Assembly (NCBI GenBank): GCA_902613065.1
Contig: CACMFU010000004.1
Location: forward strand, 1-64,000
Length of the DNA stretch: 64,000 nt
Origin: an uncultured Pelagibacteraceae bacterium
GTDB taxonomy: Bacteria; Pseudomonadota; Alphaproteobacteria; Pelagibacterales; Pelagibacteraceae
Direction of reading: 5' to 3'
Shown here: in pieces, positions 6,748 to 40,658 of the stretch
How the letters are laid out: each line of letters starts with the position of its first letter
Position numbering within the stretch: position 1 is the stretch's first letter
The notes under the pieces: generated by a model
Told to the model about the DNA's origin: nothing
Database searches by the model: none
What the model saw: only the letters and a program-made list of their open reading frames with translations
Program-made: the position numbers and the translations under genes

Positions 6748-7740
6748 TTAATTTAAATTTTGAGCCATTCTTAATGCAATTTTAAACGATTGCAATGTTG
6801 GCTCCAAATTTGCCTGATTTTTTCCAGCAATATCAAACGCAGTTCCATGCGCAGGTGTTGTTATTGGAATTGGAAGACCACCTTGAACTGTTACCCCTCT
6901 ATCAAATCCAAAAGCTTTTAGTCCAGATTGTAGAGCATCATGATACATTCCAACAATGCAATCATGATTTTTATTTTTAAATGCTGTAATGAAAGAAGTA
7001 TCACACGGTAAAGGACCATCAGCATTAATACCAAGTTTTTTTGCTTCCTCTATTGCTGGTATTATCTCATCTTTTTCTTCATTACCAAACTCTGCATGAG
7101 GGTTAAGAGCTTGAACCGCAACTCTTGGATTTTCTATACCGTTTAATTTCATTGCTTCATTAATCAATTTTATTGGCTCCATTATTTTATCTTTCTTAAT
7201 ATGTTCTGGAACTTCTTTGATAGGTATATGAGATGTCACTCGTGCAGTCCAAAAATTATCTACTACATTAAATTCACAAAAAAAACTTTTTACATTTAAT
7301 TTATCAGCCATATGATGTAATTCGTCATCAAATTTACATCCACCTAATTTTAAGCTTGTCTTATTAAAAGGACCAAAATTAATAGCATCAATTTTTTTCT
7401 CTTTCGCAAGTTCTAGTGCTAAATTTAATGCATTTAAAACAGTTTCTCCAGATTCGGCAGAGCATTCTGATAAATTATAATCTTTGTTTTTACCCTTAGA
7501 GATATCTAAAAAATACTTACTTTTTTTATCAAAATTTATTTCATCAAAATCAGTAACAATTTCTAGGTCTGAATTATTTCCTGAAATTTTATCTCCAGCA
7601 TTTAAAATATTTTTTTCACCAATTATAGTAATGTTTGCATTCGATAGTTCGTTTTGGGTCAAAAGTTTTGATATAAGTTCTGGTCCAATACCTGATGGAT
7701 CTCCAAGCAATAAAGCAATATTTTTTTTCTTATTTGTCAT
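6748..7740 (-). CDS. PdxA-family 4-phosphate dehydrogenase (PdxA2-like)
   Basis: NAD-dependent, metal-dependent beta-decarboxylating dehydrogenase, 330 residues. The N-terminal G-D-P-S-G-I-G-P-E and the three metal histidines H171, H215 and H267 are intact, as is T-T-P-A-H-G-T-A-F-D-I near 295. Classical PdxA makes pyridoxal phosphate precursors. Paralogues (PdxA2) oxidise D-threonate or D-erythronate 4-phosphate in sugar-acid catabolism. Its place directly upstream of an acid-sugar dehydratase and divergent from a tricarboxylate-type importer favours the catabolic role, but the DUF1537 kinase expected with PdxA2 is not in the window. Classical PdxA therefore cannot be excluded. Confidence 0.75.
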   Translation of the reverse strand: MTNKKKNIALLLGDPSGIGPELISKLLTQNELSNANITIIGEKNILNAGDKISGNNSDLEIVTDFDEINFDKKSKYFLDISKGKNKDYNLSECSAESGETVLNALNLALELAKEKKIDAINFGPFNKTSLKLGGCKFDDELHHMADKLNVKSFFCEFNVVDNFWTARVTSHIPIKEVPEHIKKDKIMEPIKLINEAMKLNGIENPRVAVQALNPHAEFGNEEKDEIIPAIEEAKKLGINADGPLPCDTSFITAFKNKNHDCIVGMYHDALQSGLKAFGFDRGVTVQGGLPIPITTPAHGTAFDIAGKNQANLEPTLQSFKIALRMAQNLN

Positions 7741-7809
7741 TTTTTTTCTTACTGTTTCTAACAGATTATGATTAAATATTTAAATATAAATTAACTTAAG
7801 AGGGAAATA

Positions 7810-8784
7810 ATGAAAAAAAGCTTTAAACTATTTTTAGCTGCTGCTTTTTTAGTAACTGAATTTTTTGTTGTAGCACTTCCACTTATGATTACATCTGCAA
7901 AAGCAGATGGTCATCCAATACAAGCAATTACTCATGCTGGTTTTGGTGGTGGAACAGATGTTACTACGAGAATGATGTTGTTAAGAGCAAGAAGAGTTTT
8001 AAAACAAGACATGCAATTAGTTAACAAAAAAGGTGGTGGTGGAGCTGCATCTATGGACTACATGATGACACTTCCTGCTGACGGTAATCACACTTTGACT
8101 TGGACTACTGGTCACGCAGTATCAATGGCTTTAGGTAAAACAAAAGTCAAAATAAGCGATATGCAACCGCTAGCTAGAGGAACTGATGATCCTCAACTAT
8201 TTGTTGTTAATTGTAATAATGACATCAAAGATGCTAAGAAATTTATTAGCACTCAAAAATCAAAATCACTAAAATATGGAACAACTCACACTGGTGGAAT
8301 TGATGATGTTAGTGCAATTGCATTTACTAAAAAAGGTGGATTAAAAGATCCAACTATTGTTGCTTACAAAGGTGTTGCGCCAATTAAAACTAACCTAATC
8401 AAGGGAGATATTGATGTAGGAGTTTTAAATTTAGGTGAGGCCCTAACTGAAATTAATGAAGGCAAACTTTGTGTTTCAGTTGTATTAGCAAATAATAGAA
8501 TGGCTAAAATAGGAGACTCTCCAACGGCAAAAGAATTAGGGATACCTGTTTCTTTATCTACTGTTAGAGGTTTCGTAACTAAAAAAGGTGCTCCAGCAGA
8601 CAGAGTTAAACAACTAGAAGCTGGAATGATGAAAGCTATGAGCCACAACTACTATAAAAATTTCCTAACAGAAATTGGTCTTGATGAAACTAGTGTTGTA
8701 GGCGCAGATGAATGGGGCAAGCAAATGGAAGAAATGCTTGCTGAAATGACAGCTCAACTCAAAGCATTGGGTTACATTAATTAA
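7810..8784 (+). CDS. tctC: TctC-family periplasmic solute-binding protein
   Basis: Receptor of a tripartite tricarboxylate transporter (Bug family), 324 residues. A long signal peptide ends at A-K-A with mature end D-G-H-P. The family core is visible: A-G-F-G-G-G-T-D near residue 43, K-K-G-G-G-G-A-A-S near 76 and L-T-W-T-T-G-H-A near 98. Ribosome-binding site GAGGGAAA sits 5 bases before the ATG. The two membrane subunits follow, with an intrinsic-terminator-like hairpin between them and this gene. Neighbouring enzymes suggest an acidic sugar derivative as ligand, but Bug proteins bind diverse carboxylates. Confidence 0.87.
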   Translation: MKKSFKLFLAAAFLVTEFFVVALPLMITSAKADGHPIQAITHAGFGGGTDVTTRMMLLRARRVLKQDMQLVNKKGGGGAASMDYMMTLPADGNHTLTWTTGHAVSMALGKTKVKISDMQPLARGTDDPQLFVVNCNNDIKDAKKFISTQKSKSLKYGTTHTGGIDDVSAIAFTKKGGLKDPTIVAYKGVAPIKTNLIKGDIDVGVLNLGEALTEINEGKLCVSVVLANNRMAKIGDSPTAKELGIPVSLSTVRGFVTKKGAPADRVKQLEAGMMKAMSHNYYKNFLTEIGLDETSVVGADEWGKQMEEMLAEMTAQLKALGYIN

Positions 8785-33030: not shown

Positions 33031-33930
33031 ATGAATTGGATAATTGTAGCTATTTCTGGGGCTTTTTTTCAAAATCTTAGATCAACTTTACAGAAAAAAC
33101 TTAATCAAAAAGTATCAACTATTGCATCTACCTATGTAAGATTTGCTTTTGCATTACCATTTGGGACAATTTTATTTTTTTTGTATTTTCAAGACTTAAA
33201 TGTAATTCCTGAAATCCTTAGTCAAAAAAAATTTATATTTAACGTATTATTAGGTTCAATTTTCCAAATAATTTTTACATTTGTTTTACTCTATTTATTT
33301 AGATTTGCTAATTTTGTAGTTGGAACTTCATTGAGCAAGACTGAAGTTATTCAAGTTGCAATTTTTGAATATTTAATAATAGGGGACAAATTAAATAAAT
33401 TTGGAATAACAGGAATTATTGTATCTACAATTGGAGTAATTATACTATCGATTAAAGATTTAAGTTTATTTCTAAAAAACTTATTTTCAAAAACAACTTT
33501 AATTGGTTTATCTGCAGGACTATTCCTAGGTTTAAGCGTTGTATATTTTAGAGCAGCAGCATTAACATTGGAAAATTTTAGTAATAACTTTGAAAAAGCT
33601 ATAGCAACACTATTTTTTGGTCTAGTTATACAAACAACATTAGTTACTATTTATTTAATTATATTTGAAAAGTCGCAGTTTAAAAAATTATATGAAAACA
33701 AGTATGAATGTTTGACAGCAGGGTTAGCTGGATTTCTCGCAACATTATCTTGGTTTTATGCTTTTACATTAATACAATCTTCATTTGTTAGAGCTATCGG
33801 CCAAATAGAATTATTATTTAGCTATGTGTCTTCAAAGTATATGTTTAAAGAAAAAGTTAAAATTACAGAAATTTTAGGGATAATTATATTTGTAGTAGGA
33901 GTACTAATTTTATTATTAAATAAGAGCTAA
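33031..33930 (+). CDS. EamA/DMT-family membrane transporter
   Basis: Ten-helix inner-membrane protein of 299 residues with the two internally repeated EamA halves (about 1-142 and 150-299). The second half ends in F-V-R-A-I-G-Q-I-E-L-L-F-S then the final helix, as in drug/metabolite transporters. It lacks a visible ribosome-binding site. Export or import substrate unknown. Its stop overlaps the end of the convergent SMR gene by 4 bases. Confidence 0.82.
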   Translation: MNWIIVAISGAFFQNLRSTLQKKLNQKVSTIASTYVRFAFALPFGTILFFLYFQDLNVIPEILSQKKFIFNVLLGSIFQIIFTFVLLYLFRFANFVVGTSLSKTEVIQVAIFEYLIIGDKLNKFGITGIIVSTIGVIILSIKDLSLFLKNLFSKTTLIGLSAGLFLGLSVVYFRAAALTLENFSNNFEKAIATLFFGLVIQTTLVTIYLIIFEKSQFKKLYENKYECLTAGLAGFLATLSWFYAFTLIQSSFVRAIGQIELLFSYVSSKYMFKEKVKITEILGIIIFVVGVLILLLNKS

Positions 33931-34262
33931 TTAATTTTTCCAAGATAATTAACCATTACAACACCAATAATAATTAAAAAAATCCCAATTAACCCATACA
34001 TATTTGGTATCTGGTTATATTTAATCATACCGAAGACTAAAATAGCAGCCACTGTTATCCCACTATAAGTGGCATAAGTAAAACCTACTGGTATCATAGA
34101 CATAGCTTTTGCAAGTCCATACATAGTTATACACATAAAAGCTATTGATAATATCGTTGGAGTTAATTTTGAAAATCCATCTGAAATTTTAGCAAAACTA
34201 TTTGCAGCTATTCCTGTTGATATAGCTAATACTAAATAAATGTAACCAGATAACGGTTTCAC
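33927..34262 (-). CDS. SMR-family transporter subunit lacking the conserved glutamate (second of pair)
   Basis: Four-helix membrane protein of 111 residues of the small multidrug resistance family (EmrE, MdtI/MdtJ). Helix 1 carries A-A-N-S-F-A-K-I-S-D-G-F, comparable to V-A-N-V-F-L-K-F-S-D-G-F of MdtI. Aligning on that K-x-x-D-G-F end puts glycine (S-T-G-I-A-A-N) where the proton- and substrate-binding Glu of SMR proteins lies. It overlaps its paralogue by 4 bases, so the two likely form a heterodimer. Last gene of the small-protein operon. Confidence 0.75.
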   Translation of the reverse strand: MKPLSGYIYLVLAISTGIAANSFAKISDGFSKLTPTILSIAFMCITMYGLAKAMSMIPVGFTYATYSGITVAAILVFGMIKYNQIPNMYGLIGIFLIIIGVVMVNYLGKIN

Positions 34263-34594
34263 TTATTTGTTCCTAATAAGTTAACTATTAAGACACCCGA
34301 GATAATTAAAATTAATCCAATTATTGTATAAAAATTTGGTACTTGATTAAATTTTATAACACCAACGGCAGCTGTTGCAATTATACATAAGCCTGCAAAA
34401 GAGGCATATGTTATTCCAACTGGTATACTTTTCATAACTAAAGACAAAGTATACATGCATCCAACAATTGTTACTGCTGTGATTATGCTAGGTATTAATA
34501 ATGTAAAACCTTGAGCACTTTTAGCAAAACTATTTGAAGCTGTTCCAAGAATTACTGCGATTAATAAAATTATATAAGCAGTTATATTATTCAT
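34259..34594 (-). CDS. SMR-family transporter subunit lacking the conserved glutamate (first of pair)
   Basis: Partner of the SMR gene at 33927, 111 residues, four helices. Helix 1 reads L-G-T-A-S-N-S-F-A-K-S-A-Q-G-F, with glycine again at the usual Glu14 position. Similar composition and the shared N-S-F-A-K motif show that both copies arose by duplication. A longer reading from 34651 runs back through the isomerase gene and is rejected; the ATG at 34594 overlaps that gene by 8 bases. Polyamine-type (MdtIJ-like) export is the closest known role, but the missing Glu argues for a different coupling. Confidence 0.75.
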   Translation of the reverse strand: MNNITAYIILLIAVILGTASNSFAKSAQGFTLLIPSIITAVTIVGCMYTLSLVMKSIPVGITYASFAGLCIIATAAVGVIKFNQVPNFYTIIGLILIISGVLIVNLLGTNK

Positions 34595-35183
34595 TTGCCT
34601 TCGACCATTTGATTGCATCTTCCATTCTATCATCTCCCCAGAATATTTCATTTTTTACAATAAATGACGGACTTCCAAATATTTTATTTTTTCTAGCCTT
34701 TTCTGTATTTGATAAATAAATATTATTAACTTCCTCAGAGCTTGCCTCTGAAACAATCTTTTCTTTATCTAAGCTTAGTTTTTCGCAGATTTCACTCAAG
34801 TTTGGTTCAACAGCAGGCTCTTTTCCTTCTTGAAACCATCGTTTATACGTAAGCTGAATGTAATCTACACCCCAATTATTTTTTAAACCTAATATTGCAA
34901 TTTTATTAGCTAAATCAAATTCTGTTAAAGGATAAGGAACAGGTGTTTTGGCAAAAAATCCATAATTTTTTGCTCGTCTTTCTATGTCTCTCCACATGTA
35001 ATCTACTTTATTTTTTTTTTCTTTAGGAAAGGGAACATTGTTCATTTCTTTCATTATTGCTCTCACACTAAAAGGAGTCCAGTTAAACTTAATTTGATGT
35101 TGTTTTTCTGCTTCTAGTGCTCGAGTAACCGAAAGATAAGTATAAGTACTTCCAATAGAAAAATAAAAATCTATGTTGTTCAC
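34587..35183 (-). CDS. 2-hydroxychromene-2-carboxylate isomerase / DsbA-like (GST kappa) protein
   Basis: Thioredoxin-fold protein of 198 residues of the HCCA isomerase / GST-kappa family. The N-terminus I-D-F-Y-F-S-I-G-S-T-Y-T-Y-L has the glutathione-activating serine (S11 or S9) in place of the DsbA C-x-x-C. I-F-G-S-P-S-F-I-V near residue 170 is the cis-Pro loop, and F-W-G-D-D-R the C-terminal family mark. In naphthalene degradation the enzyme isomerises a hydroxychromene with glutathione. Here no aromatic pathway is visible; it sits between small NTF2-like genes and SMR transporters in one operon. Confidence 0.82.
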   Translation of the reverse strand: MNNIDFYFSIGSTYTYLSVTRALEAEKQHQIKFNWTPFSVRAIMKEMNNVPFPKEKKNKVDYMWRDIERRAKNYGFFAKTPVPYPLTEFDLANKIAILGLKNNWGVDYIQLTYKRWFQEGKEPAVEPNLSEICEKLSLDKEKIVSEASSEEVNNIYLSNTEKARKNKIFGSPSFIVKNEIFWGDDRMEDAIKWSKANE

Positions 35184-35504
35184 TTATTTTGGCATTGGCG
35201 TTGCGCCAGTTTCTAAACTAATCATTTTGCCATCTTTGTATTTGTAGACTGCCATAACTGCTTCTACATTACCGTCATCAAATGTTACAAACGCATGGTG
35301 AACACCAACTTCATCATTTTCATAAACAATTCTAGTTTTATCTTGCTTAATGTCACCACTCATTGCCCATTTGATAACATCACTTTTAGTTAAAACACTC
35401 CCTGATTTATGCATTGTGAATTTAAAATCATCATGCAAAAGTTCATTCATTGCTGCTTCATCTTTATTTTTAATTGCAGCACTATATTTTTCTAATATTG
35501 ACAT
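35184..35504 (-). CDS. NTF2-like/SnoaL-like small protein (paralogue of 37813-38142)
   Basis: Protein of 106 residues with the predicted cone-shaped NTF2 fold: N-terminal helix M-S-I-L-E-K, then H-D-D-F near 24, and C-terminal strands with Y-K-D-G-K and E-T-G-A-T. It shares much of its length with the gene at 37813 (M-S-I-L-E-K start, E-N-D-E, V-T then D-G-N-x-E-A, K-D-G-K, E-T-G-A-T end), a clear duplication within the operon. No catalytic residues can be assigned; family members are cyclases, isomerases or ligand binders. It ends directly before the isomerase start. Confidence 0.7.
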   Translation of the reverse strand: MSILEKYSAAIKNKDEAAMNELLHDDFKFTMHKSGSVLTKSDVIKWAMSGDIKQDKTRIVYENDEVGVHHAFVTFDDGNVEAVMAVYKYKDGKMISLETGATPMPK

Positions 35505-35515
35505 TTTTTTCTCCT

Positions 35516-35806
35516 TTATGCTCCTTTAATTATTAATGTATTTGATACAGTATTATCTAATCTAATCTGTCTGATAGGTTTATATATTTCGGAATTGTAC
35601 CACTCAAAAACTTTTTCATAAGATGGGAATTTAATTACAACAGTTCTTGGATATTTCCACTCACCTTCAATGACTTCATTTTCGCCACCTCTTATAATGT
35701 ATTCGCCACCAAACATTTGAGCAGTTGGAGGAGCTTTTTCCAAATACTCTTTGTAATTTTCAGGATTTAACACATTAATATTTAATATGATATATCCTGA
35801 AGGCAT
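35516..35806 (-). CDS. DUF1330 family protein (dimeric alpha/beta-barrel)
   Basis: Protein of 96 residues matching the DUF1330 pattern: first strand G-Y-I-I-L-N-I-N-V, then Y-K-E-Y-L-E-K-A-P, F-G-G-E-Y-I-I-R-G-G, E-G-E-W near 48 and the Y-N-S-E-I-Y-K-P-I-R helix. DUF1330 proteins have the ferredoxin-like dimeric barrel of antibiotic monooxygenases, but no reaction is known. Spacing is 11 bases to the NTF2-like gene downstream and 23 to the gene upstream. Confidence 0.75.
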   Translation of the reverse strand: MPSGYIILNINVLNPENYKEYLEKAPPTAQMFGGEYIIRGGENEVIEGEWKYPRTVVIKFPSYEKVFEWYNSEIYKPIRQIRLDNTVSNTLIIKGA

Positions 35807-35829
35807 TACAAACCTTATTACAAAAATTA

Positions 35830-36120
35830 TTACATATCTACTTTATTTAATTCGTAGACACTGTAACTTTCCATAACTTCTTTCATAACTGGAGCTGATA
35901 CTGGATTGCTTCCATCTATAAAAGCTTTAAGGGCAGCTTTATCGGTCACAAAAATTTTAAACATTACTGTTTTTTTGTCAGGTGCAACTGTTCCAATTGT
36001 TTTTGATACATTTGCAACTTTCGATCTTTCTGCCATACCAGCATCTGATTGCATAAAGCCCATAAATTTTTCTAACATACCTTCTTTTAAATGAGCTACT
36101 ACTAGTGTTTCTGTTTCCAT
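35830..36120 (-). CDS. Small hypothetical protein, probable dimeric alpha/beta-barrel fold
   Basis: Protein of 96 residues without a family I can name. The order of strand (E-T-L-V-V-A-H-L), helix (M-L-E-K-F-M-G-F-M), strand (V-S-K-T-I-G-T-V), strand (T-V-M-F-K-I-F-V), helix (K-A-A-L-K-A-F-I-D-G) and strand (E-S-Y-S-V-Y-E-L) suggests a ferredoxin-like barrel similar to its neighbours. It has no signal peptide and no cysteine. Confidence 0.6.
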   Translation of the reverse strand: METETLVVAHLKEGMLEKFMGFMQSDAGMAERSKVANVSKTIGTVAPDKKTVMFKIFVTDKAALKAFIDGSNPVSAPVMKEVMESYSVYELNKVDM

Positions 36121-36147
36121 ATTTTATCCTTTCTTTATATTGATTGT

Positions 36148-36438
36148 TTATCCACTAAAATTTTCCATAAAATCTTCATGCATCGGTGTAACCTTTGCTG
36201 AATCTAAATCCACGCCTGCTTCAGCTCTTGCTGCATGAAGTTCTTTGTCATTTTTAAATGCTTCAAAACCTTCCATGGTTGCATACTTAACGATTACAGT
36301 AAATTTTGTAGGGTCTTCTTTTGATACACCTGCAAAAATAATCGTAGCACCAAATCCTTTAATTTTTTCAGCATTCGCTTTTACCATATTCATCCATGAT
36401 GAAAGTGATTTTATATTTTCTTCTATTTTAATTATCAT
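36148..36438 (-). CDS. Small dimeric alpha/beta-barrel-like protein (DUF3764-like)
   Basis: Protein of 96 residues. The middle strand pattern G-V-S-K-E-D-P-T-K-F-T-V-I-V and the preceding helix with S-S-W-M-N-M-V resemble the DUF3764-type family and the gene at 37174 (N-P-N-K-V-H-I-V at the same place). Function unknown. A good ribosome-binding site (GAGAGGAAA) precedes it, 13 bases after the cupin stop. Confidence 0.6.
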   Translation of the reverse strand: MIIKIEENIKSLSSWMNMVKANAEKIKGFGATIIFAGVSKEDPTKFTVIVKYATMEGFEAFKNDKELHAARAEAGVDLDSAKVTPMHEDFMENFSG

Positions 36439-36451
36439 TTCTGTTTCCTCT

Positions 36452-36850
36452 CTATTTAACTGGATTTACAATCTTCTGACCTTCAACACCGATTGCAACC
36501 ACTATTGCTTTAGCAGGCACATTTCCTATATTTCGAGATTCATGTGCAATACCGACATCTTCAACAAATGCATCACCAGCCTTATAAACTTTGGTTTTGC
36601 CATCCATCGTAAGCTCAATTTCACCTTGTTGGATCATTATTAATACTGGAAAGGAATGTGTGTGAGGTTTTACTGGAGCTCCTACAGGGACAGTAAATTC
36701 AAAAGCTGTTATTTTTGCTTTACCCGATGGATAAACAATTTCATTTCCCATACCAGTTTCACTTGTTGATAATATTCTCTTTACATGACCATCTGCAAAG
36801 CAATTTGAAGTAAAGATACTTAAGAATAATACGACTATAATTTTTTTCAT
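36452..36850 (-). CDS. Secreted single-domain cupin
   Basis: Periplasmic cupin of 132 residues. A signal peptide ends C-F-A with mature start D-G-H-V-K. The beta-barrel carries the metal-site histidines of cupin motif 1 (P-H-T-H-S-F-P, H63 and H65 approximately, with Q-G-E-I following) and a motif 2 histidine in V-G-I-A-H-E-S-R-N-I-G. A metal-dependent role is possible but not assignable. It is one of two secreted proteins in this otherwise cytosolic run of small genes. Confidence 0.7.
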   Translation of the reverse strand: MKKIIVVLFLSIFTSNCFADGHVKRILSTSETGMGNEIVYPSGKAKITAFEFTVPVGAPVKPHTHSFPVLIMIQQGEIELTMDGKTKVYKAGDAFVEDVGIAHESRNIGNVPAKAIVVAIGVEGQKIVNPVK

Positions 36851-36867
36851 AAATTTTCCTATATTGT

Positions 36868-37155
36868 TTAACTATTAAAATTGAATACTTCCTCTTTTAC
36901 CTCTGTAAATTGATGTGGTTCAAAAAAATCATTCATAGCAGAAAGTTGCTCATTAATAGCATCGGTGCTTTCAGCCATCCAATGACAGAACATAGTCATT
37001 GTCTCATCAGGAGTGTAGTATGTCATTTGACATTTGGCCTTATCACTTGTTGATGATTCAATTATTTGTTCTCTAGTCATTCCGCCTAAAGTTTCATTAA
37101 ATTTTTTTTTCATTTCTTTAGATTTAAACGTGTGAGTTACCATATAGTATTTCAT
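36868..37155 (-). CDS. Small hypothetical protein with alpha/beta-barrel-like pattern
   Basis: Protein of 95 residues starting M-K-Y-Y-M-V-T-H-T-F. The helix after the first strand, the central strand pair (K-C-Q-M-T-Y-Y, T-M-T-M-F-C-H-W-M-A) and the last helix (D-A-I-N-E-Q-L) fit a ferredoxin-like fold as seen in antibiotic-monooxygenase-type or DUF4242-type proteins. Two cysteines (near 42 and 57). Family not recognised. Confidence 0.58.
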   Translation of the reverse strand: MKYYMVTHTFKSKEMKKKFNETLGGMTREQIIESSTSDKAKCQMTYYTPDETMTMFCHWMAESTDAINEQLSAMNDFFEPHQFTEVKEEVFNFNS

Positions 37156-37173
37156 ATTACCTTTCAGTTTGTT

Positions 37174-37443
37174 TTAATCTGAGCAAACGCTCATCATTGT
37201 TGTTTCTTGTTTGTGTCCAGATTCTTCGATTACTTTAGCATTATCTGGGTCTTGCATAAATTTTTGCATTGTATCTGCTGCGGGAGTCTCCATGACTATA
37301 TGAACTTTATTTGGATTATCTATTTCATTTCCAACATAAACTGTTTTTATACCAGCAGCTTCCCTAGGTTCTTTATGGGCATCAAAAGATTTTTTCCAGT
37401 GATCCCAATCTTTTACTTCAAAACTACCTACCATCTTCACCAT
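37174..37443 (-). CDS. Small dimeric alpha/beta-barrel-like protein
   Basis: Protein of 89 residues when started at the ATG at 37443, which overlaps the stop of the upstream cupin by one base (TAATG); a GTG 12 bases upstream is less likely. First strand V-K-M-V-G-S-F-E-V, then D-W-D-H-W-K-K-S-F-D, R-E-A-A-G-I, N-P-N-K-V-H-I-V and F-M-Q-D-P form the same pattern as the gene at 36148, so they may be diverged paralogues. Role unknown. Confidence 0.62.
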   Translation of the reverse strand: MVKMVGSFEVKDWDHWKKSFDAHKEPREAAGIKTVYVGNEIDNPNKVHIVMETPAADTMQKFMQDPDNAKVIEESGHKQETTMMSVCSD

Positions 37444-37799
37444 TATTCGCCCCACACTCCACCAAACTCGTATGCAATAACTGGCTCATCACCAACTACC
37501 CATGCATCATGACCTGGTTTAACTGAGTAAGCGCTACCGGCGGTATAAGTAATTTCTGTTCCATCGTCATGTTTTGCAAACACAGTTCCTTTTACAATAA
37601 CCCCAATATGATTTGCCTGACAACTTGCAGCGTCGGAGTCTATTTTTGGTTTAACATCTTTTGACCATTTCCAACCTGGTTGAAGTTTAATTTGTACTAA
37701 CCTCTGTCCACCAACATTCACATGGTACATGTCTGCATTGTCAAATTGTTTAAATTCCTGATCTGGTTTATCAAAACTTTTTGTTTCTGCGCCACTCAT
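37443..37799 (-). CDS. Cytosolic small cupin
   Basis: Cupin-fold protein of 118 residues without signal peptide. Q-P-G-W-K-W-S-K near 40 and C-Q-A-N-H-I-G-V-I-V-K-G-T-V near 60 form the first cupin motif, with H64 the only obvious metal histidine there. P-G-H-D-A-W-V-V-G-D near 94 is the second. Stand-alone cupins of this kind are often ligand-sensing or metal-binding proteins of unknown function. Translation of the next gene is coupled by a TAATG overlap. Confidence 0.7.
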   Translation of the reverse strand: MSGAETKSFDKPDQEFKQFDNADMYHVNVGGQRLVQIKLQPGWKWSKDVKPKIDSDAASCQANHIGVIVKGTVFAKHDDGTEITYTAGSAYSVKPGHDAWVVGDEPVIAYEFGGVWGE

Positions 37800-37812
37800 A
37801 ATCTTCCTTAAT

Positions 37813-38142
37813 TTATTCTTTTGGTAATTTTGTTGCGCCTGTTTCTACTTCGATGATTTTTCCATCTTTGAACTTCCAACAACACATTAACGCCTCTGTG
37901 TTTCCATCTTGATAAGTCACATAAGAATGATCAAAACCTATCTCATCATTTTCAAAAAGAATTCTATGTTTAACAGGACTCATCATTCCTTTACTTACAG
38001 CCTCTATCATACCTTCTTTACCCATATGCACATATTCGCCTTTAAGATGAGAAAACATCTTATATTCTTCATGCACTAACTCTCCAGCTGCAGCCCCATC
38101 CTTTTCCAAAATTGCTTTATTAAGTTTTTCTAAAATTGACAT
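37813..38142 (-). CDS. NTF2-like/SnoaL-like small protein (paralogue of 35184-35504)
   Basis: Protein of 109 residues, duplicated partner of the gene at 35184. They share M-S-I-L-E-K, the H-E/D-E/D after helix 1, E-N-D-E, V-T then D-G-N-T-E-A or D-G-N-V-E-A, K-D-G-K and E-T-G-A-T. It differs by several histidines and a C-C-W pair on the last strands. Nuclear-transport-factor-2-like fold is likely; ligand unknown. Spacing 13 bases to the cupin, 8 bases from the secreted protein gene. Confidence 0.7.
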   Translation of the reverse strand: MSILEKLNKAILEKDGAAAGELVHEEYKMFSHLKGEYVHMGKEGMIEAVSKGMMSPVKHRILFENDEIGFDHSYVTYQDGNTEALMCCWKFKDGKIIEVETGATKLPKE

Positions 38143-38150
38143 ATTTCTCC

Positions 38151-38618
38151 TTAGTTTAAATTATAATTTCCTGTAATTTCATTGTAAGAATGAACTATCC
38201 CTTCTTGTGCAGAATTCATACCTTTTATAGTCGCAGTTCCACCACCTGATATATTTTCATACTTTCCAGTTCCACTTACATATTTCCATCTCAACATTTT
38301 TCCAAAAACACCTTTATATTGCGAAGTTGCTGTTCCACCATCTTCAAATTTATTTACGCAAGTACCACTTTCATATCCTTTTCCTGCAAAAACAACTATT
38401 GAACCTACGCATCTCATTGAAGATTTATCTCCAAAAGTCGTTCCATCTAATGCTTTTAAACCCAACATACCATCATAGATAATTGTAAAATTACCTTTAT
38501 CGTCACCTAAAACCTTTGATGTACCTGCAAAAAAACCGTTTTGTTTAATTTGTCCTTGTTCAGCAAAAGCTGTGCTCGACATAAATATGATAATTAAAAA
38601 AAAATATAATTTTTTCAT
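38151..38618 (-). CDS. Secreted beta-rich protein of unknown function
   Basis: Protein of 155 residues with a signal peptide ending T-A-F-A and mature start E-Q-G-Q. The mature part is rich in glycine and beta-branched residues, with two cysteines (in M-R-C-V-G and G-T-C-V-N) that could form a disulfide. G-G-G-T-A-T and E-I-T-G-N-Y near the end resemble lipocalin- or allene-oxide-cyclase-like barrels, but I cannot assign a family. It is in the middle of the small-gene operon (6 and 8 base gaps). Confidence 0.65.
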   Translation of the reverse strand: MKKLYFFLIIIFMSSTAFAEQGQIKQNGFFAGTSKVLGDDKGNFTIIYDGMLGLKALDGTTFGDKSSMRCVGSIVVFAGKGYESGTCVNKFEDGGTATSQYKGVFGKMLRWKYVSGTGKYENISGGGTATIKGMNSAQEGIVHSYNEITGNYNLN

Positions 38619-38624
38619 AAACTA

Positions 38625-38999
38625 TTACTTTTTCATTGCATTGAACATGCTCAATGTGTCGTCAAACGCAATAAACAATGTCAGTTTACCATCATCGCTT
38701 ACTTCAAAATAATGACCAAAAATAGTATCCATGCCATCTGCCTTAGCAATTGCTTTAACAAACACTTTATTCCCCTCACTTATCATCATATCAGGGGTTA
38801 CTGAAAAATTACTCCATAGATCTGGAACTTGCATCATGGTTTTCATATATGCTTCTTTGCCTTTATGAGTTCCTGACATTGGATGCTTATCTCCAGGATA
38901 AATCCAAGTGATATCATCATGTACCATTTCCATAAATCCCTCCATATCTCCTTTGCCAAAAAGTTCATATCCTTTTTTTACTACTTCTTTTGCGTTCAT
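38625..38999 (-). CDS. SnoaL-like NTF2-fold protein
   Basis: First gene of the small-protein operon, 124 residues. The SnoaL-type start (V-V-K-K-G-Y-E-L-F-G-K-G-D-M), V-H-D-D-I-T-W near 26-32, and M-S-G-T-H-K-G-K-E-A-Y near 41 are typical of this limonene-epoxide-hydrolase/ketosteroid-isomerase-like group. The Asp after the His may be catalytic. The ribosome-binding site is AAAGGAA; a weak terminator and possible promoter separate it from cysK. Confidence 0.75.
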   Translation of the reverse strand: MNAKEVVKKGYELFGKGDMEGFMEMVHDDITWIYPGDKHPMSGTHKGKEAYMKTMMQVPDLWSNFSVTPDMMISEGNKVFVKAIAKADGMDTIFGHYFEVSDDGKLTLFIAFDDTLSMFNAMKK

Positions 39000-39042
39000 A
39001 AAATTCCTTTAATTATTAGATAATTATTATTCATTCTAAATT

Positions 39043-39065
39043 AAAAATGTAATGGTTTTATTACA
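39043..39065 (-). terminator. Weak intrinsic terminator between cysK and the small-protein operon
   Basis: On the minus strand a 6-bp stem (TGTAAT with ATTACA, loop of 6) is followed by five T residues, 16 bases after the cysK stop. It suggests the small-protein run starts its own transcript inside this 82-base gap. Confidence 0.5.
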
Positions 39066-39081
39066 GTGCTGGTATGCGTGA

Positions 39082-40083
39082 TTATATCCAGTCGGGATAA
39101 GGCAAACCTTTTTCAATTAAAAAAGGTTTATTAAACATCTTTGAGTTGTATCTGTCTGATTTGTCGCAAAGAATAGTGACAATAGTTTTACCTGGTCCTA
39201 ATTTTTTCCCTAATCTAATTGCACCTGCAATATTTACTCCACAACTTGTTCCAAGACTTAAACCTTCATTTTTGATTAAATCATATAGTATTGGCAAAGA
39301 TTCTTTATCTTCAATTGAAAAAGCTCCATCTATTTTTGCTTCTGCAAAATTAGCAGTTACTCTGCTGGATCCAATGCCCTCAGTTATTGATCCACCTTCA
39401 GCTTTTAACTCGCCGTTTTCAATGTGATTGTAAAGAGATGATCCCTTTGGATCTGATAGATAAATTTTTATATCTTTATTTTTTTCTTTTAAAAAACTAC
39501 TTACTCCACCAATAGTTCCACCAGTTCCAGAAGAACATACAAATCCATCAACTTTTCCCTCCGTTTGCTCCCATATCTCAGGACCCGTTGTATGGTAGTG
39601 ACCTTTAGAGTTTGCGGTATTATCAAATTGGTTAGCCCAAACAACTCCGTGATTATTTGAACTTTTTAGCTCTTCAGCCATTCTGGCAGCAACCTTAACA
39701 AAGTTATTTTCATCTTTATAAGGTTTTGGTGGAACTAATTTTAAATCTGCACCAATATTTCTTAATGTATCTTTTTTTTCTTGAGTTTGATTATCATTCA
39801 TTACAATAATCGTTTTATAACCAAGTGAATTTCCAATAAGGCATAAACCAATACCAGTGTTTCCTGCAGTTCCTTCTACAATTATTCCACCTTTAGATAT
39901 TAATTTTTTTTGTTCAGCATCCCTTATTAAAGCTAGTGCTGCTCTGTCTTTTACAGATCCTCCTGGATTTAAATATTCGGCTTTACCATAAATGTTACAG
40001 CCAGTTATTTCAGATGCAGCTTTTAGTTTTATTAAAGGAGTATTTCCAATTGATTGGATAAAATCATCCTTGTAATTTTTCAT
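39082..40083 (-). CDS. cysK: Cysteine synthase family protein (CysK-like)
   Basis: PLP enzyme making cysteine from O-acetylserine and sulfide, 333 residues. The PLP lysine K45 lies in N-P-G-G-S-V-K-D-R-A-A. T-A-G-N-T-G (substrate loop) near 72 and S-S-G-T-G-G-T-I-G-G (phosphate loop) near 183 are intact. The start overlaps the cysE stop by one base (TAATG), confirming a serine-to-cysteine pair. The C-terminal part, with S-D-R-Y-N-S-K, matches the longer cysteine synthase branch. Confidence 0.9.
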   Translation of the reverse strand: MKNYKDDFIQSIGNTPLIKLKAASEITGCNIYGKAEYLNPGGSVKDRAALALIRDAEQKKLISKGGIIVEGTAGNTGIGLCLIGNSLGYKTIIVMNDNQTQEKKDTLRNIGADLKLVPPKPYKDENNFVKVAARMAEELKSSNNHGVVWANQFDNTANSKGHYHTTGPEIWEQTEGKVDGFVCSSGTGGTIGGVSSFLKEKNKDIKIYLSDPKGSSLYNHIENGELKAEGGSITEGIGSSRVTANFAEAKIDGAFSIEDKESLPILYDLIKNEGLSLGTSCGVNIAGAIRLGKKLGPGKTIVTILCDKSDRYNSKMFNKPFLIEKGLPYPDWI

Positions 40084-40658
40084 TATTCTTTTTCCTCATT
40101 ACCATTTGTAACAGCATAAGGTTTAAATTCTTCAGTTGCTGTTCCAACATTCTTAGCAGGTATTCCTACCATAACAGCATTTTCAGGAACATTTTTTGTT
40201 ACAACTGCATTAGCTCCAATTCTTGCATTTTTCCCTACAACTACAGGCCCCAAAATCTGTGCACCCGAACCAACGACTACATTATCATGAAGAGTAGGGT
40301 GTCTTTTAATTTCTCTTTGATCATTGGAATTTATGCTTGGAGATATTCCACCTAAAGTAACCATATGATAAATTGTTACGTTATCTGCAATGTCAGAAGT
40401 TTCACCTATAACAACGCCCATACCGTGATCAATAAATAAATTTTTACCTATCTTAGCTCTTGGATGAATTTCAATACCAGTTAAAAATCTCGAAAATTGA
40501 GAAATTATTCTTGCGATAAGATCAAATTTTGCAGTAGCAAAAAAATTTGCAATTCTGTGAAAAAATACAGCCTTAACGCCAGGGTACGTTAATATTACAC
40601 TTAACTTAGATCTTGCTGCTGGATCCCTATCAATAATTGATTGCAAATAGTCATTCAT
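40083..40658 (-). CDS. cysE: Serine O-acetyltransferase (short EpsC type)
   Basis: Enzyme making O-acetylserine from serine and acetyl-CoA, 191 residues, the short form without the long N-terminal helical domain of E. coli CysE. Hexapeptide-repeat left-handed helix from about residue 60; catalytic H-G and [12 protein letters not shown] near 73-84. R-H-P-T-L near 120 and the tail I-G-A-N-A-V-V typify SAT. It lies between the MBL gene (37-base gap) and cysK (overlap). Confidence 0.9.

Follow-up and report, generated by a model that had tools for sequence, protein, structure and literature searches.

What does a SAR11 bacterium do with a run of 14 mostly tiny genes, and is the run a fixed unit? 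The question is raised by a 64,000-nucleotide stretch of DNA (the window) from an uncultured Pelagibacteraceae bacterium (GenBank assembly GCA_902613065.1, contig CACMFU010000004.1, positions 1 to 64,000), whose genome comprises 1.27 Mb in 37 contigs. As the first-pass annotation of the window had described, 14 open reading frames (ORFs) lie on the minus strand from position 38999 to 33927, separated by spacers of 6 to 27 bases except for one pair that abuts and three that overlap slightly. Twelve of the 14 encode fewer than 135 amino acids (aa), the exceptions being g2 (155 aa) and g12 (198 aa); the genes are named g1 to g14 in reading order from the cysK side, and all of their coordinates refer to the minus strand. 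The run is flanked on one side by cysE-cysK and on the other by an EamA-type transporter gene in the opposite orientation. Our reading, to which we assign a probability of about 0.5, is that the run represents one state of a collinear, modular, predicted operon that occupies a fixed slot after cysE-cysK and serves as a small-molecule toolbox, often with a noncanonical small multidrug resistance (SMR) transporter. The evidence for the architecture is good; the chemistry is what we infer.

Gene content and order in the slot after cysK

The anchor for all comparisons was the upstream flank, cysK and cysE (positions 39082 to 40658, minus strand). In one set of loci, no operon gene was used in the search: 61 genomes of the genus were searched by cysK, giving 49 with a match and 48 with a strong match including the window's own genome, and 40 of the 47 others were fetched, with 7 left out. 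Two of the 40 regions end just after cysK (L077 and L080), leaving 38 usable loci. In 37 of these, cysK is followed by an operon of at least three pool genes on one strand, with a median of nine, while the remaining locus, L085, represents one genome genuinely without the operon. The 37 loci have 29 distinct ordered compositions, their intergenic gaps have a median of 10 bases and are 40 bases or shorter in 269 of 288 cases, and 267 of the 325 encoded proteins are shorter than 135 aa. The commonest members are g10 (positions 35516 to 35806) and g11 (35184 to 35504), each found in 31 of the 37 loci, and g9 (35830 to 36120), found in 27. These three genes form a common core, SMR genes are usual, and the other members are present, absent, or swapped singly or in short blocks, with the order kept. 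At least one SMR subunit is encoded in 30 of the 37 loci, which agrees with the inclusion of such genes in the operon, but the pair seen in the window is not constant, as both subunits occur in only 12. The homologs therefore form a linked set across cysK loci rather than being scattered singly, although g9 occurs alone or with one partner (c1) in some genomes.

A larger set of 116 cysK-anchored loci consisted of the 40 cysK-drawn loci, the window, 4 loci from a search of the family, and 71 of 80 loci found with g9, these 80 being the best of at least 525 relatives; 9 of the 80 failed the cysK filter, including 2 (L137 and L158) that do show cysK. Removal of four duplicates left 112 loci, and the further removal of L077, L080, and L085, which have fewer than three pool genes, left 109. 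Genes were called mechanically, and family membership required a BLAST match at an E value of 1e-5 or better, so that remote members may have been missed. Among the 109 loci, 60 compositions were found. With each composition counted once, 2,065 of 2,139 gene pairs (96.5%) stand in the majority order, whereas 200 shuffles averaged 61.5% and reached at most 64.4%; when three loci near a contig end were left out, 2,019 of 2,090 pairs did so (106 loci, 58 compositions). The core gene g11 is present in 102 of the 109 loci, and the SMR subunits occur as a pair in 76, singly in 24, and not at all in 9.

The pool comprises about 25 families, whose proteins are mostly tiny and have a single domain. Beyond g1 to g14, it includes c5 (with a signal-peptide-like start), c1 (a membrane protein, from reading its sequence), c9 (DUF2798), c10 (GYD), c56, and k25, a CopI-like cuproprotein with an NCBIfam match at an E value of 3e-45 that lies below the model cutoff (154 of 280 bits). 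Two further families, k33 (TPR-like) and k67 (VOC/glyoxalase-like), were assigned by reading the sequences, and k67 had no database match. In several loci (L033, L035, L087, L136, and others), c1 lies inverted between cysK and the operon, and in other lineages it lies inside the operon.

Related clusters also occur outside the slot. A g9 profile matched 5 of 385 genomes of the class, namely, the window's own, a second genome from its genus, and three that belong to a single other family. The three other-family clusters lie at a different genomic site and have the compositions g9-g4-c56-g11, g9-g11, and g9-g4-g11, in which 5 of 6, 1 of 1, and 3 of 3 pairs (9 of 10 in total) follow the order of the cysK site. 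Of 99 genomes of the family, 24 carry g9. Another Pelagibacteraceae genus has a cluster of a second type (c5, g10, g9, g6, c1, c25, and c10). In L041, L042, L044, and L046, this second type (DUF1330, g9, g6, c1, ABM-like, and GYD) stands at another site beside a gene that reads as methyltransferase-like. DUF3764, the family of g5, was found in 1 of 299 genomes of the phylum, only the window's own, a draw that says little about SAR11 because SAR11 loci of this study carry DUF3764. A g9 relative with 66% identity (L142, positions 398 to 793) lies on a contig labeled as a Flavobacteriaceae metagenome-assembled genome (SAT168), which is perhaps misbinned SAR11 DNA and possibly a transfer. Elsewhere in the window's genome, a tandem pair of diverged DUF1330 genes was seen (L049, positions 7504 to 8109). 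A phage or mobile origin of the core was rejected, as g9 had no confirmed relative in viral contigs and g11 had no match in phage records, these being the two genes searched. A role in phage defense was likewise rejected, since none of the 10 proteins scanned out of the 14 matched PADLOC at an E value of 0.01.

The run might be an ordinary flexible island in which unrelated small genes have gathered by chance and share only a permissive promoter. The highly variable composition would suit this explanation, as would the turnover by recombination described for known SAR11 flexible islands (PMC4033161 and PMC2217521). However, gene order is conserved far above the shuffled expectation, several of the same families are assembled at another site in another family, the same fold classes recur, and the genes are under purifying selection, and we therefore disfavor a chance assembly as quite improbable.

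Turnover among close relatives

The 41 loci nearest the window that are complete from cysK to EamA, with one genome per GTDB species, have nine compositions, or eight in the 40 that remain without the distant L134. All 14 genes are present in 10 loci, the block g3 to g6 is absent from 16, g1 is an optional first gene present in 30, and L127 retains only g9 to g14. Among these relatives without L134, cysK nucleotide identity is 92.7 to 100%, with a median of 96.2%. In the close relatives, the downstream flank is formed by the EamA-like transporter gene (positions 33031 to 33930, plus strand), and the four genes past it are the same in 41 of 41 loci, with one 5-aa length difference. The compact pathway that the first-pass annotation had inferred is not supported as a fixed unit, as most members vary even among close relatives. 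On a tree of both flanks, the minimum numbers of changes are 6 for the block g3 to g6 (scored by g4), 4 for g1, 6 for g2, and 3 for g8. The corresponding numbers are 10, 6, 9, and 3 on the EamA-side tree alone and 4, 5, 6, and 3 on the cysK-side tree alone.

Individual cases point to how the changes may arise. One supported clade unites five loci, namely, the window, L094, L103, L114, and L099, and three compositions occur within it: the full set of 14 (the window and L094), the set without g3 to g6 (L114), and the set without g2 to g6 (L099 and L103). Identity profiles were drawn for 16 locus pairs. Between the window and L114, nucleotide identity is 100% in cysE, cysK, and g1, falls to 76% in g2 and 79% in g7 on either side of the absent g3 to g6, and returns to 97 to 100% from g8 to EamA, a profile that matches the predicted outcome of internal segment replacement by homologous recombination. 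In L099 and L103, the start of g2 is joined, between g1 and g7, to sequence that looks like the last part of g5 and the spacer preceding the next gene, and this junction has the makeup of a deletion scar. The cases examined thus indicate that turnover probably proceeds by homologous recombination within shared neighboring genes and by deletion. Alleles also differ among the close relatives, with g2 proteins down to 71% aa identity and g7 falling into two allele classes (79% nucleotide identity).

The ratio of nonsynonymous to synonymous differences per site (pN/pS) among the close relatives, calculated only from genes of the commonest length, is 0.03 to 0.13 for twelve genes, 0.16 for g7, and 0.29 for g2, with 0.05 for cysK. 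Because all values lie between 0.03 and 0.29, all 14 are working genes under purifying selection and not debris. Between species, pS goes down to 0.22 in g1 and 0.37 in g11 against a minimum of 0.56 in cysK, although these are short genes, and such low values may reflect either cross-species transfer or constraint together with chance in short genes.

Folds of the products and the noncanonical SMR proteins

The fold classes proposed from the window were mostly recovered, with some members weaker than supposed. Of three NTF2/SnoaL-like proteins, g1 (positions 38625 to 38999, 124 aa, SnoaL_2) and g11 (106 aa, DUF4440) exceed their Pfam cutoffs, whereas g3 (37813 to 38142, 109 aa, DUF4440-like), which belongs to the optional block, stays below (21.3 against 25.2) but falls into one BLAST cluster with g11. 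Of two cupins, g7 (36452 to 36850, 132 aa) is a strong Cupin_2 member, and g4 (37443 to 37799, 118 aa), which also occurs in the cluster of another alphaproteobacterial family, gives a weak match (16.7 bits against 27.2). Of about five ferredoxin-like barrels, g5 (37174 to 37455, 89 to 93 aa, DUF3764) and g10 (96 aa, DUF1330) exceed their cutoffs, the optional g8 (36148 to 36438, 96 aa) is DUF3764-like just under it (23.8 against 24), and g6 (36868 to 37155, 95 aa) is weakly SCO4226-like. No Pfam family was found for g2 or g9. An AlphaFold2 model of g9 (96 aa), built from 17 sequences, supports a ferredoxin-like barrel with a mean predicted local distance difference test score (pLDDT) of 94.9, and its structural relatives include WhiE-ORFI, NIPSNAP, ABM proteins, SnoaB, LsrG, and FasU, with Z scores of 7.8 to 9.2 over 84 to 90 residues.

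The beta-rich protein g2 (positions 38151 to 38618), the product of another optional gene, was modeled from 15 sequences (pLDDT, 83.8) as an eight-stranded barrel of the cyclase type. Its first seven structural matches have Z scores of 11.4 to 13.1 over 114 to 129 residues, with root-mean-square deviations of 2.4 to 3.9; the matches include a Shewanella barrel (13.1), the Diels-Alderases PloI4 and AbyU (11.4 to 11.5), dirigent proteins (up to 11.4), a pyocyanin demethylase (11.2), and, at about 10.4, allene oxide cyclases. Streptavidin- and porin-like structures score lower, at 8.6 or less. The modeled fold of g2 is that of the dirigent/allene oxide cyclase/Diels-Alderase barrel. Both g2 and g7 had been called secreted, which corresponds to signal-peptide-like starts judged by eye. 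In a sequence search of solved structures, g7, for which a DMSP-lyase role was also considered, found one uncharacterized cupin and two tetracenomycin polyketide synthesis proteins, g11 found one weak match, g4, g5, and c56 found none at 0.1, and a g9 profile found none.

The GST-kappa/HCCA isomerase and the two SMR subunits noted earlier are in line with Pfam, which assigns g12 (positions 34587 to 35183) to DSBA and g13 and g14 to SMR. The g12 protein aligns with the 2-hydroxychromene-2-carboxylate (HCCA) isomerase structure 2imd across 184 residues at an E value of 1e-13, including an N-terminal Ser that we take to be the active-site Ser of that enzyme; by this alignment, g12 has both the fold and the N-terminal Ser of the isomerase, and a glutathione-dependent isomerase activity is putative. 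In L101, two pieces match g12 with intact neighbors, probably a broken reading frame, and the locus was kept as its own composition. Taken together, the model relatives of g2 and g9 and the Pfam families suggest that most of the soluble products have folds used elsewhere for cofactor-poor cyclization, isomerization, or binding, in agreement with the earlier view of the set as typical of small tailoring cyclases and isomerases, and the Pfam scan likewise found no large synthase among the 14 genes.

A single defined catabolic or biosynthetic pathway, for example, aromatic, oxylipin, or terpenoid, with the lineages at different stages of loss and the SMR proteins exporting or importing the product, would account for the common core of g9, g10, and g11, the HCCA-isomerase-like g12, the cyclase-type folds, and the strict gene order. 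However, no oxygenase, synthase, or coenzyme A ligase is among the window's 14 genes, although the few larger, unannotated genes in other loci (184 to 428 aa) could hold one. In addition, of the 102 loci with g11, g12 occupies the position between g11 and the SMR genes in 74, and in 15 the CopI-like k25, the TPR-like k33, or the VOC-like k67 stands there without g12. Because members vary widely and g12 is replaceable by such unrelated proteins, a single fixed pathway is the less likely explanation, and we consider it improbable.

The SMR genes g13 (positions 34259 to 34591) and g14 (33927 to 34262) depart from the ordinary exporter that they had been taken to encode. The listed 130-aa ORF of g13 probably begins too early, and an ATG at position 34591 would give a protein of 110 aa. 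In alignments with the solved EmrE, both subunits have Gly in place of the central Glu14, with Phe (g13) or Tyr (g14) in place of Trp63. A census of the operon SMR proteins, which are related rather than independent copies and include 7 encoded on the opposite strand beside the operon, shows Gly at the Glu14 position and retention of Tyr60 in 197 of 197, Phe at the Trp63 position in 97 of 97 g13 proteins, and Tyr there in 100 of 100 g14 proteins. Control SMR proteins, 13 from other alphaproteobacterial genomes and 1 from elsewhere in the window's genome, have Glu and Trp in 14 of 14 cases, although in L193 the Glu was seen in only one of two alignments, the one with g13. The control from the window's genome (L196, G000:C6:62177-62485) is encoded by a separate gene and has the usual residues, the Glu and Trp that the operon pair lacks. 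The central glutamate is required by proton-coupled SMR exporters, according to the review PMC9574504, and because Gly replaces it, the operon proteins lack the defining residue of proton-coupled cation exporters (Gdx, Qac, and polyamine types) while keeping the tyrosine switch Tyr60. The same review states that lipid-type SMR proteins often have Asn in place of the central Glu. The operon proteins have Gly instead of the Asn of the lipid-type ArnE/ArnF, and with the ArnE model, g13 scored 17.5 bits against a cutoff of 92 and g14 was not listed.

These transporters also bear on the possibility of a general stress-tolerance island against metals, electrophiles, or oxidants, with barrel and NTF2 proteins that would sequester toxic compounds. 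The CopI-like, glyoxalase-like, SMR, cupin, and GST-kappa-like g12 proteins could each be protective, and in L056 to L061, the CopI-like gene replaces the HCCA-isomerase-like gene between g11 and the SMR genes. The occurrence of CopI-like and VOC-like modules makes tolerance a reasonable rival to a small-molecule toolbox, but the former are found in only 7 and the latter in 2 of the 109 loci, and the SMR proteins lack the residue needed in ordinary drug export, so that we regard it as rather unlikely.

The reading that we favor is instead a modular toolbox. A pool of about 25 families feeds the cysK slot, and homologous recombination in shared neighboring genes, together with deletion, would deal modules in and out. 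Each module may use a cofactor-poor fold (an alpha/beta barrel, an NTF2 or cupin fold, a dirigent/allene oxide cyclase barrel, or an HCCA-isomerase-like fold) to bind or rearrange its own class of small, reactive, or hydrophobic molecules, and some modules may act in the periplasm. Each lineage would then hold its own repertoire for chemicals that it makes itself or meets in seawater, and the SMR proteins without the glutamate may pass a neutral or anionic compound or a lipid-like product across the inner membrane without classical proton antiport.

Several observations weigh against this reading. Because g9 was the route to the window and to 75 of the 116 loci, the frequencies in the full set are ascertained. 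The order is imperfect, since g4, g6, and c9 occur on either side of g9 or g13, and the second cluster type agrees with it only in part, g10 preceding g9. Because each GTDB species is represented by a single genome, the turnover seen is that among closely related lineages and is not proven within a species. Part of it travels with the cysK flank, as the block g3 to g6 requires 4 changes on the cysK-side tree and 10 on the EamA-side tree. The best Z score of g9, 9.2, is near those of unrelated ferredoxin-like structures such as MgtC and ribosomal S6 (7.8 to 8.1), the cupin assignment of g4 is weak, and a shared fold by itself demonstrates no function or chemistry.

The spacer between the cysK stop and g1 (positions 39000 to 39081, minus strand) contains a short A/T-rich hairpin followed by Ts and then the presumed operon promoter. 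The hairpin at 39043 to 39065 had been taken for a terminator separating the run from cysK, but it is only a 6-bp A/T-rich stem with Ts, which some relatives lack; a strong intrinsic terminator was rejected, since the consensus terminator scan does not list it. By eye, the first half of the spacer is conserved among relatives, and the second half varies with the first gene. A known RNA element in the leader was also rejected, with no Rfam match at the gathering score in the window.

Relation to known systems and meaning for SAR11

A search of titles and opening abstracts of open-license PMC papers found no published description of this operon, which is not proof of absence. The nearest counterparts are other variable regions. 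Replacement flexible genomic islands, mainly clusters for surface structures, are exchanged by homologous recombination (PMC4033161, Lopez-Perez 2014), and strain HTCC1062 has four hypervariable regions (HVR1 to HVR4; PMC2217521, Wilhelm 2007). The latter paper contains neither "cysK" nor "cysteine synthase," and PMC5069961, which treats HVR3, names cysK only as a gene that sulfur stress does not induce. Other SAR11 islands are described in PMC7318151 and PMC12421898. The slot resembles these regions in its fixed site, lineage-variable genes, and homologous recombination with the flanks; close relatives differ in content at the same place, and signs of recombination accompany the conserved flanks. 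Replacement islands, however, swap whole clusters for mostly exposed structures, whereas here single genes or short blocks change and the order is kept. Exchange of functionally equivalent whole clusters was not seen, and none of the 14 genes belongs to a polysaccharide, flagellar, or S-layer family. Integron cassette arrays likewise are strings of small, mostly unknown genes on the same strand with variable content, but the slot has a conserved gene order and, in the window, spacers of no more than 27 bases. The attC sites of integrons are longer than the slot spacers. The spacers are therefore too short for an attC site after each gene, a judgment by length, with no integrase search made.

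The individual proteins have known counterparts as well. The operon SMR proteins share a length of about 110 aa, the SMR Pfam family, the tyrosine switch, and, in the window, adjacent subunits with the Gdx, Qac, polyamine, and lipid subtypes covered in PMC9574504, from which they differ in having Gly at the central Glu and Phe or Tyr at Trp63. The folds of g1, g2, g7, g9, and g11, and weakly that of g3, resemble those of natural-product tailoring cyclases (SnoaL, SnoaB/ABM barrels, tetracenomycin-type cupins, AbyU/PyrI4/PloI4, and dirigent proteins). The sequences are distant, however, no synthase accompanies them, the scan, which covered the 14 genes, found no ketosynthase or minimal polyketide synthase, and cyclase roles are putative. 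In the same way, g12 is similar to HCCA isomerase, but no naphthalene-pathway gene is among the 14.

Few cells in the ocean are as abundant as SAR11 bacteria, whose genomes are streamlined. An operon whose median size is nine small genes, and which is held under purifying selection yet reshuffled among close relatives, must therefore pay its way. The slot is a compact natural experiment, with dozens of sequenced variants that differ by a few small genes between near-constant flanks, and SMR proteins without the central glutamate make noncationic SMR transport directly testable. It is tentatively possible that the slot represents a new kind of operon, in which homologous recombination deals interchangeable, single-domain, cofactor-poor enzymes and binding proteins whose order around the core members is fixed, together with a new class of glutamate-less SMR proteins, and that closely related SAR11 lineages may thereby differ in the compounds, self-made or from seawater, that they transform or release.

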